This document shows, in pieces, positions 31,903 through 33,996 of a stretch of 42,642 nt of DNA. The notes below the pieces were generated by a model. The model was not told the origin of the DNA. It saw only the letters and a list, made by a program, of their open reading frames with translations, and made no database searches. Position numbers and translations under genes: made by a program. Numbering within the stretch: the stretch's first letter is position 1; each line of letters begins with the position of its first letter. This DNA comes from Promethearchaeota archaeon (GTDB taxonomy: Archaea > Asgardarchaeota > Lokiarchaeia > Sigynarchaeales > SOKP01), in contig JAUXAJ010000008.1 of assembly GCA_030620005.1 (NCBI GenBank), forward strand, positions 1-42,642, written 5' to 3'.

Positions 31903-32770
31903 TTAAAGCCCTTTGGGTCCAGACTCGTAAATTTTGTACGCTTCGTCTACTGATGCATTTTCATGAACGATAGCCCTTACAGCTTTAATCATTCCGATGG
32001 GACTGTCCGACTGGAAGATATTTCTCCCCATGTATGCGCCTTTAACTAATTCAAATAGGTAAAGTCAACGCCAACAGCCCCTTTATCAACAGCATCTTTT
32101 GACATTTGCAATGCATCCCTTTCAGGAATTTTTTTAGGCTCTTGTAAGAGTTTATTCTCTAAACAAGAATTACCCCCAGCTATCACAATCGGTGCTGAGC
32201 AAATGCCTGTAACCTGTTCGAAGTTTTCGCAATAATATGTCTTTACAAAGGTTGCGCCCATTTCTGCTGCCATTCTGCTGGCCATTCCGAGATATCGGGC
32301 GTCTCTTACCATTTCCCTGCCAACAGCCGTAACAGCTAAAGTCGGGATGCCATATTCTTGTCCCCAATTTACAAGCTTGGACAAATTCAGCAAGCTTTGT
32401 TTTTCGTATTCACCGCCAACGAATATTGAACAAGTAATTGCGGCAACATTTAATCTGATGGCTTCGTCAATCGTTACGTTAATTTCTTCGTTTGATAATT
32501 CTTTAAGCATGCTTGCTCCAGCTGACACCCTTAAAACTATTGGTTTATCAAGAGAAGCAGGAACGCTATTCCTTAGCATCCCTCGCGTTAACATTAAAGC
32601 GTCAGCGTATTCGAACAGTGGTTGTAAACTATCGAAACTCTTTAATTGTCCGGGGACATTGCCAAAATAACCGTGATCTATTTAGCCAAAAAAGTAAAAT
32701 CTTAATCGTTTGCTAGCATCACGCATCGACCGGATTTAGGCTTCACGATTCTCGAGAATCTGTTCAACAT
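31903..32770 (-). CDS. Class I aldolase (LsrF/FbaB-type) gene interrupted by two candidate BHB introns
   Basis: Exons (minus strand): 32770-32710, 32680-32066 and 32033-31903. Joined they give 268 residues without a stop and align with LsrF-type aldolases from N-R-F-S-R-I to E-A-Y-K-I-Y-E-S. Active-site text is present: A-I-D-H-G-Y-F (first junction), F-V-K-T-Y-Y with the Schiff-base Lys, I-V-I-A-G-G, and G-V-D-M-G-R-N-I-F-Q (second junction, phosphate site). Unspliced, stops TAA/TAG and frameshifts appear at both sites, leaving only 182 codons. No other lesion is seen in 807 nt, which argues against a decayed gene. The start is uncertain: the first ATG (32770) is preceded in frame by V-G-G-W-G, which still resembles the family (W-G-M), so the true N-terminus may be further upstream. 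Substrate (fructose bisphosphate, an LsrF-type ketone, or other) is not visible. Confidence 0.7.
32034..32065 (-). other. Candidate mRNA intron 2 (32 nt, BHB)
   Basis: Minus-strand core: helix GCGT (32071-32068) with GCGC (32039-32036), bulges T-G-A and A-T-A, and an inner stem CTTTA/TAAAG of 5 perfect bp directly beyond the bulges, continued by CTA/TAG. Cutting after the second base of each bulge removes 32065-32034 and joins GTTG to ACATGGGG, read V-D-M-G. The outer helix is short (2 bp, then mismatches). Confidence 0.7.
32681..32709 (-). other. Candidate mRNA intron 1 (29 nt, BHB)
   Basis: Minus-strand core: helix TAGC (32715-32712) with GCTA (32686-32683), bulge A-A-A on the 5' side and A-A-T on the 3' side, inner stem CGA-TT-AAG closed by CTT-TT-TTG with an ATTTTA loop. 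Cutting after the second base of each bulge removes 32709-32681 and joins GCAA to TAGATCAC, read A-I-D-H. Outside, CGTGAT and ATCACG give 6 bp, separated from the core by a 2x2 mismatch. Confidence 0.65.
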
Positions 32771-33075
32771 CCCCCACCCACCAACTGGTAAAGGTCTATG
32801 AATGTTTGTTATTCTAAATCACCATTTTTTTTAATTGATTATTAATATCTATTTTGTTTTTACTGTTTTATTGTTTTATTAGGTTAAAAATAATATTTAA
32901 AGTTACTTAAGTTCCCCGTGTAGCATTGTTATATTTGTTTTTGAATGAATTGATAGTAGAAATTCCAAATCCTCTTTAGAAAATCTAAACCTACTATAAC
33001 TTTTAGAAATTAAAAAAACAAACAAAAAGAAAATTAGAGAAAACTTAATATTTCACTAATGCTCTCAACTATTTC
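32771..33075. other. Upstream region of the aldolase gene
   Basis: 305 bp. The part next to the gene reads in frame ...I-H-R-P-L-P-V-G-G-W-G before the ATG at 32770, limited by a TGA about 60 bp upstream. Beyond that it is AT-rich promoter sequence. A minus-strand ATG GTG ATT TAG lies about 55 bp upstream of 32770, out of frame. Confidence 0.4.
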
Positions 33076-33996
33076 TCAAAGCAGGTTCAAGAAATCTTCT
33101 ACTTTATTCTTGATTTTGGCCGTTAACTTGCTCGAAACTCTCTGTTTTATGAAGTCTTTTATGATTGACAATCGATAGTGATTTATTTTTGGGTTGTTTA
33201 AATATTTCGAGAGTATGTCTATTAAATCATCTTCGTAAATTTCTTTAGCGTTTTCAAGATTGGAAACAACCTGCTCAGTTTCTTTAATAAATTTATTGAT
33301 ATCTTGTGAAATCAATATTACTTGTTCTCGTGGATCTATGATTTCTAAAGCTTTCTTAAAAATCGCTTCCTCGAATTTTAACTTTTCTGACCAAGGTGTT
33401 TGTAGAATAGTTTTGTAAGCGTCAATAAAGAGCGCATTCTTCTCTTTTATTTTGATTTTGCCGTAGTCAATAAGAGAACCTCCATATGAAAACGTGCCAA
33501 TGTTCCTTGGCGCCTGAACAGTTCGAGATTTACTAAAGTAATCTTCTTCATTAACAGATTTTATTAAACTAGTACCTCTATACTTTTCTGGAATATATTT
33601 ATCAAAAAATTCATTTAACTTATCGGTAATATCTTCAGTGTTTTCAGGATTCATTATATAACTTGGATAATTAAACAATTTCGCGTGAAGTAAACTAAAA
33701 ACGCCGTGTAGACCGAACATTTGGAAAAGCAAATTAAGCGACAACTCTTCCATTTTTTCATATTGTTCTTTTATTTCTCCTGCTGGTGCGGTCATGTGGA
33801 TATCTATTTTTTCGTATCCCCTCACGATTCCTTTAGTATCCACGAAAGCAATGAATTGATGTTCTGAACAAACCCCTTCCGCGGGCACTTGGAGTTTTAA
33901 TGTCCCAAATTTCTTTTGAGTGAAGATCGCTTCGGGAATATTGATTATTTTAACAGCTTTACAAACCGGACAGGTTAATTCAACTTCTTTCGACAT
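33076..33996 (-). CDS. Uncharacterised protein with N-terminal zinc-binding motif
   Basis: 306 residues. The N-terminal 60 residues hold C-P-V-C (9-12) and G-V-C-S-E-H (Cys43, His46), a likely zinc site in a small strand-rich domain with F-G-T-L-K-L-Q-V-P. It continues F-V-D-T-K-G-I-V-R-G-Y-E-K-I-D. The rest is mainly helical, with coiled-coil-like segments near 210-290. Proteins with this type of opening appear, as far as I remember, in multiple copies in Lokiarchaeia genomes, without known function. A good ribosome-binding sequence (AAGGAGAT) precedes the ATG by about 11 nt. The gene stands alone. Confidence 0.6.
   Translation of the reverse strand: MSKEVELTCPVCKAVKIINIPEAIFTQKKFGTLKLQVPAEGVCSEHQFIAFVDTKGIVRGYEKIDIHMTAPAGEIKEQYEKMEELSLNLLFQMFGLHGVFSLLHAKLFNYPSYIMNPENTEDITDKLNEFFDKYIPEKYRGTSLIKSVNEEDYFSKSRTVQAPRNIGTFSYGGSLIDYGKIKIKEKNALFIDAYKTILQTPWSEKLKFEEAIFKKALEIIDPREQVILISQDINKFIKETEQVVSNLENAKEIYEDDLIDILSKYLNNPKINHYRLSIIKDFIKQRVSSKLTAKIKNKVEDFLNLL

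Follow-up and report, generated by a model that had tools for sequence, protein, structure and literature searches.

How is an aldolase gene expressed whose reading frame is broken by short inserts? The question arises from a sequence-only reading of 42,642 nucleotides of archaeal DNA (the window; GC 0.326), which had seen BHB introns in two such inserts of 29 and 32 nt and had predicted an otherwise undamaged coding sequence for a protein of 268 aa. As judged by comparison with homologous loci, this is very likely a functional Lokiarchaeal LsrF-type aldolase gene with at least three mini BHB introns (29, 36, and 32 nt), which would be cut by EndA and joined by RtcB. The parts of the gene are listed in the table.

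Table. Anatomy of the aldolase gene in the window (positions of the whole stretch; all features on the minus strand)
Feature	Position	Strand	Description
LsrF-type (DeoC/LacD family) aldolase gene with introns A, C, and D	31903..32770	(-)	from the ATG of the sequence-only reading to the TAA stop
Putative intron F	32786..32816	(-)	31 nt; tentative, outside the 15 counted inserts
Exon 1	32710..32770	(-)	ends in (I), aligned with relatives; may reach 32785 behind putative intron F
Intron A	32681..32709	(-)	29 nt; helix TAGC (32715-32712) with GCTA (32686-32683)
Exon 2	32170..32680	(-)	DHGYFGN ... VIAGG
Intron C	32134..32169	(-)	36 nt, in frame; helix GGGT (32175-32172) with GCCT (32139-32136)
Exon 3	32066..32133	(-)	KKIPERDAL ... 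GV
Intron D	32034..32065	(-)	32 nt; helix GCGT (32071-32068) with GCGC (32039-32036)
Exon 4	31903..32033	(-)	DMGRNIFQ ... GPKGL; stop 31905-31903

The assignment to the LsrF type, made earlier from the bare sequence, is in line with profile and structure comparisons. The open middle part of the window gene matches Pfam PF01791 (E 1.5e-10) and reaches 261.7 bits on the NCBIfam model of the LsrF thiolase (NF006081, cut-off 297), the query being a fragment that includes a 12-residue insert. The protein of an intact Lokiarchaeal relative, L002, scores 395.9 bits on the same model and matches the structures of LsrF, the 3-hydroxy-5-phosphonooxypentane-2,4-dione thiolase of this protein family (PDB 3glc, 3gkf), with an E value of 1e-91. 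The nearest relatives of the window aldolase are Lokiarchaeal, and 144 of the 227 genomes of the phylum that were searched hold some relative of it. Upstream of the gene lies a minus-strand neighbor (33076-33996) with a sub-threshold Pfam match only (DUF7722). Homologs of this neighbor are found directly upstream of the aldolase in other Lokiarchaeal loci (for example, L005 2887-3732 and L025 2930-3799); thus, the gene pair seems to be conserved.

Inserts A and D lie where the sequence-only reading had placed them. Each forms a 4-bp helix between two 3-nt bulges, and cutting after the second bulge base yields AIDHGYF at A and GVDMGRN at D, as had been claimed. The remainder of the coding sequence, described as free of lesions, contains a third insert, C, which was overlooked because it keeps the frame and is free of stops. 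Left unspliced, C adds 12 residues between VIAGG and KKIPE, which adjoin in most relatives, and it is absent from most homologs (a gap against 57 ORFs and against 54 genomes). In L021, a 36-nt insert occupies the same site, there with in-frame stops. The claim of two introns therefore holds insofar as both fit the BHB rule, but falls short of the actual number, which is at least three and perhaps four. Consequently, removal of A, C, and D gives a protein of 256 aa counted from the ATG at 32770, not the 268 aa predicted, while the unspliced reading from this ATG runs into a stop within intron A.

The three inserts differ in detail. Intron A has the bulges AA^A and AA^T (cut marked by ^) and an inner stem of 3 bp; two offsets fit the rule and give an identical spliced mRNA. 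Intron C contains two G-U pairs in its central helix, with the bulges AA^T and AA^A and an inner stem of 6 bp, and intron D has the bulges TG^A and AT^A and an inner stem of 5 bp. A fourth, N-terminal insert F is possible. Its removal would join ATGGTGATT (32825-32817) to GTTGGTGGGTGGGGGATG, giving an N-terminus like that of the MVVVGDWGF relatives and, with the start at the ATG at 32825, an alternative length of 264 aa. The BHB fold of F lies 13.5 kcal/mol above the minimum free energy (MFE) structure, and shuffling does not set it clearly apart from chance (p = 0.03 if an inner stem of 2 bp is required, 0.21 otherwise).

Aligning homologous genes for presence or absence of the inserts, a check proposed with the original claim, shows that the window is not a singular case. 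From a scan of genome contigs, 80 of 94 confirmed aldolase loci formed the locus set, and inserts were scored by anchors, tblastn gaps, and N-termini. Among the 56 Lokiarchaeal copies compared (the window and 55 loci labelled Lokiarchaeota or Lokiarchaeia, L001-L054 and L056), ten carry inserts and 46 have none at the scored positions. The 15 inserts measure 29-36 nt and occupy five positions, A (one, 29 nt), B (three, 30 nt), C (two, 36 nt), D (eight, 32 nt in 8/8), and E (one, 30 nt). The window holds A, C, and D, L021 holds B, C, and D, L050 holds B and D, L044 holds B, and L035 holds E, while L001, L004, L010, L028, and L040 have D only. Site A is thus occupied in the window only, whereas intron D recurs with the same site and length in seven other copies (L001, L004, L010, L021, L028, L040, and L050). 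Recurrent inserts sit at the identical nucleotide in different species. Close relatives nevertheless differ: L001 has D and L009 lacks it, L028 and L040 have D and L034 lacks it, and C is found in L021 but not in its close relative L050.

Unlike the window, the 25 loci without a Lokiarchaeal label (L055 and L057-L080) show no insert at the anchored sites, with site C unscored in six of them (L058, L059, L069, L076, L077, and L079). A value of 46 in L080 was taken for an anchor mismatch. L055 (4001-4585) lies on a contig labelled Methanomassiliicoccales, and its aldolase is 73% identical to the query, which points to a transfer or a mislabelled bin. At G145:C11:32028-32450, a fragment of a further aldolase copy (residues 120-260, one TGA) precedes the full copy by about 1.2 kb, on the same strand of the contig.

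Database proteins bear the mark of site D. Among 120 proteins listed, nine besides the window's own end 2-6 residues after GVD (P0002, P0005, P0007, P0011, P0012, P0020, P0045, P0076, and P0084); public gene calls thus seem to truncate the gene at intron D. At site C, P0002, P0005, and P0007 additionally carry an insert of 10 aa. P0020 is the product of the gene in L010, P0011 and P0012 are one sequence, and the remaining six have no match to the insert-bearing loci over an 80-aa stretch. At site D, two of the 120 proteins (P0047 and P0048) belong to neither class; at site C, 11 are unscorable.

All 15 inserts show the same arrangement, namely a 4-bp central helix and two 3-nt bulges on opposite strands, with a cut after the second bulge base that keeps the protein motif. 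None of them (0/15) fits the mirror geometry once an inner stem of at least 3 bp is required. As a null, the intron letters were shuffled with dinucleotides preserved, and an inner stem of at least 3 bp was required (relaxed to 1 bp in L050 and L021 for the inserts at B and D, whose inner stems start with 1-6 bp). The rule was then obeyed by 0.3-7% of shuffles, corresponding to p = 0.003-0.07 per instance (A 0.003; B 0.014 in L044; C 0.035 in the window, 0.0097 in L021; D 0.0053 in the window; E 0.009). In 12 of the 15 inserts (sites A, C, D, and E), no more than 0-2 bp of outer helix adjoin the bulge, compared to 3-4 bp at B; the canonical motif has an outer helix beyond the bulge. Because of this short outer helix, the inserts represent a relaxed rather than a canonical BHB form.

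Folding, likewise suggested as a check, gives a divided picture. The central helix appears in the unconstrained RNAfold MFE structure of nine of the 15 inserts, whereas other pairing is preferred in the rest, including A, where it is favored by 0.8 kcal/mol; the forced BHB lies 0-4.1 kcal/mol above the MFE. Insert E of L035 is the weakest instance. It is AT-rich and repetitive, has two G-U among its four pairs, and, with the inner-stem condition dropped, agrees with the 4 bp of the mirror geometry at three offsets as well. Further, when 465 kb of Lokiarchaeal DNA were scanned loosely for the BHB motif, there was no real excess over the mirror geometry, with 791 versus 739 hits for stems of at least 6 bp, 396 versus 389 for 7, and 184 versus 193 for 8, and counts below the mirror for 9 (73 versus 94) and 10 (28 versus 50). 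The motif alone therefore proves little, and motif scanning alone misses such introns.

The lengths and hairpins of the inserts bear on a rival explanation, programmed ribosome bypassing, in which the inserts would stay in the mRNA and ribosomes would hop over the hairpins, as known from T4 gene 60 and the yeast mitochondrial byp elements. Hairpins and lengths of 29-36 nt are typical of byp-like elements too, and site E of L035 offers matching TTA/TTA and AGA/AGA triplets. Bypassing predicts such matching take-off and landing triplets, however, and in 14 of the 15 inserts no such match exists at protein-preserving positions. To our knowledge, the geometry of a 4-bp helix with 3-nt bulges has no role in bypassing. 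We regard bypassing as quite improbable.

Covariation supports the BHB fold at site D, where it was tested with eight sequences; the other sites have too few. Here, 94.2% of cells are paired, compared to 23-49% in slid controls. Changes on both sides are seen in five of the 15 pairs (mean of shuffles 2.1; 0/500 reach 5). Four of these pairs belong to the inner stem and one to the central helix; the outer helix is poor. The covariation score is 0.343 versus 0.212 (0/500 shuffles), whereas further standard pair types do not exceed the shuffles (9 versus a mean of 9.8; 483/500 as high). Compensatory change lies above the shuffles in all but one of five measures. Moreover, the D introns are on average 71% identical, while the fourfold sites of their host genes reach 35% (26/28 pairs, the two closest pairs left out; base composition uncontrolled), which indicates that the intron is either constrained or has spread recently.

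The enzymes that splicing would require are encoded by the relatives of the window. Two EndA genes occur in 8/8 Lokiarchaeal genomes, and RtcB was found in 7/8, the exception among these genomes being G002. One EndA product of G002 keeps Tyr, His, and Lys, which we take to be the catalytic residues, while the other lacks Tyr and His, which suggests the heteromeric type. An intended control with tRNA introns, in which ARAGORN was run on 60 of 80 G007 pieces, found a single tRNA-Cys and carries no weight here. PMC2738675 reports that EndA of the heteromeric type tolerates relaxed motifs and non-tRNA contexts, and PMC12397907 describes a broader specificity of the Aeropyrum EndA.

From the anatomy and its conservation, covariation at site D, exon selection (see below), and the enzyme genes of the relatives, which together argue for the BHB reading, we infer that the transcript is cut and ligated and the spliced mRNA translated, as follows. 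In the transcript, each intron would fold into a short hairpin. Four bases near its 3′ end would base-pair with four in the exon upstream, so that three nucleotides bulge out on either strand. A heteromeric EndA would cut each bulge after the second base, RtcB would join the exons, and the spliced mRNA would be translated to an aldolase of 256-264 aa. Alternatively, EndA might cut without productive ligation, so that cleavage would serve down-regulation or truncated proteins would be made on purpose. The early stop of the unspliced reading is compatible with this, as is a case in Haloferax, where, according to a passage of PMC7714728, removal of a BHB intron from the 5′ UTR seems to matter for HVO_1309 expression. 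Against it, the exons flanking the inserts are intact and constrained as one gene, exon 4 being assessed together with the others, and cleavage without ligation is in our view quite unlikely to account for the inserts.

Splicing to a functional mRNA also agrees with the state of the exons, which are under purifying selection. We compared 13 gene pairs. In the six measurable pairs with an insert-bearing member, dN/dS is 0.043-0.078, and it is 0.033 in the one insert-free pair; in six further pairs, among them the three that involve the window, synonymous sites are saturated. Because of this saturation, the window gene itself has no dN/dS figure, and its pairs are described by pN of 0.074-0.096 against pS of 0.82-0.88. 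A pseudogene or degenerate copy with chance insertions would have the broken frame of the raw sequence and could hide behind the saturated dS of the window pairs. Degeneracy of the relatives, named beforehand as one of the outcomes that would speak against introns, is not what we found: all ten insert-bearing copies are otherwise intact and have one spliced length (258 aa from the WG motif in 10/10). Together with these dN/dS, pN, and pS values and the recurrence of inserts at the same nucleotide across species, this makes a pseudogene very unlikely. An assembly or sequencing artefact is extremely unlikely, since same-site inserts with compensatory changes occur in assemblies of several projects and truncated database proteins come from other records, even though the relatives are mostly metagenome-assembled and one near relative without insert, L006 (3850-4800), looked broken in an error-like manner, with two in-frame TAA where its relatives have Glu (GG*Y*KQS), probably by assembly error or fresh mutation.

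Inserts of this kind appear to be concentrated in the aldolase gene within the DNA sampled. An all-against-all tblastn of 2.82 Mb (Lokiarchaeal loci, parts of G001, G002, and G007, and the window) covered 1051 open frames of at least 90 aa with a homolog in another genome, counted from stop to stop with spurious and antisense frames included. These frames correspond to about 322 families, and 60 of them are aldolase-like; the sample is partial, with only 105 frames from G001, 174 from G002, and 28 from the window. Of 643 insert events, 118 involve a stop or frameshift and 525 are in frame and stop-free. All stop or frameshift events backed by at least ten genomes lie in the aldolase gene and all others rest on at most six genomes, so that this partial sample of 2.82 Mb and about 322 families contains no well-supported stop- or frame-breaking insert outside the aldolase. 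Only four of the 525 stop-free events are backed by at least five genomes. One is the window's insert C, with a fitting BHB, and the other three, of 27-30 nt, do not fit it; among all 525, the BHB geometry is found in 12 and the mirror in nine. For cbf5 (PF01509), 214 of 227 Asgard genomes gave a match, with no internal stop among the matches listed, the domain covering part of the gene.

The history of the inserts is patchy. On a tree of 60 rows (rows L006 and L062 short; 26 of 57 inner branches open), insert presence needs eight changes, at least six of them forced by well-supported branches, and is not clearly clustered (58/500 shuffles as low). The scattered occurrence of D is compatible with loss as well as with repeated gain or transfer. 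It is possible, though we put this forward tentatively, that the aldolase gene is a hotspot of repeated gain (and loss) of mini BHB introns, with five or six positions, up to four introns per gene, and expression dependent on the tRNA-splicing machinery. If so, the conservation of D and the lack of such inserts in other sampled genes would point to targeted, mobile-like insertion or to a regulatory role of splicing.

BHB introns of archaeal tRNAs and rRNAs have the same helix-bulge geometry, cut rule, and presumed enzymes as the aldolase inserts, whose host RNA, unlike theirs, is an mRNA with little outer helix. In mRNAs, BHB introns are known but very rare. PMC7714728 (2020) states that, its own 5′-UTR case aside, a BHB intron had been reported for one archaeal mRNA only, that of cbf5. 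The 5′-UTR case, HVO_1309 of Haloferax volcanii, is an mRNA cut by EndA at a BHB, as is predicted for the aldolase; in contrast to the 5′-UTR intron, the aldolase inserts lie in the coding sequence, and the reading frame depends on their splicing. The closest parallel is crenarchaeal cbf5 (Yokobori 2009, PMC2738675). Passages of that article describe short BHB introns in its coding sequence, frequently with a relaxed motif, of 36 bp in Staphylothermus and lost in some lineages, and link them to hetero-oligomeric EndA. The aldolase differs from cbf5 in that it encodes a metabolic enzyme of Asgard archaea, with at least three inserts per gene, five alternative positions among relatives, and insert lengths of 29-36 nt throughout. 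The same article mentions predicted, unconfirmed introns in other archaeal protein genes and, for an archaeal virus, putative introns of 12 bp, similar to the aldolase inserts as small putative introns in coding sequences; these passages name neither this gene nor Asgard archaea, and an overlap is possible. Among the matches listed in the open literature, preprints apart, we found no report of mRNA introns in Asgard archaea. New here are several probable mini BHB introns in one Asgard metabolic gene, at varying positions.

Such introns carry a warning for annotation, as archaeal gene calls can split the genes that contain them; the nine database proteins that end right after the position of intron D are examples. 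Asgard archaea are the phylum nearest to eukaryotes. If the proposed reading is true, the Lokiarchaeal aldolase, with several EndA-type introns in one coding sequence and presence or absence differing between close relatives, would allow gain, loss, and cost of non-spliceosomal introns to be studied in a natural system.
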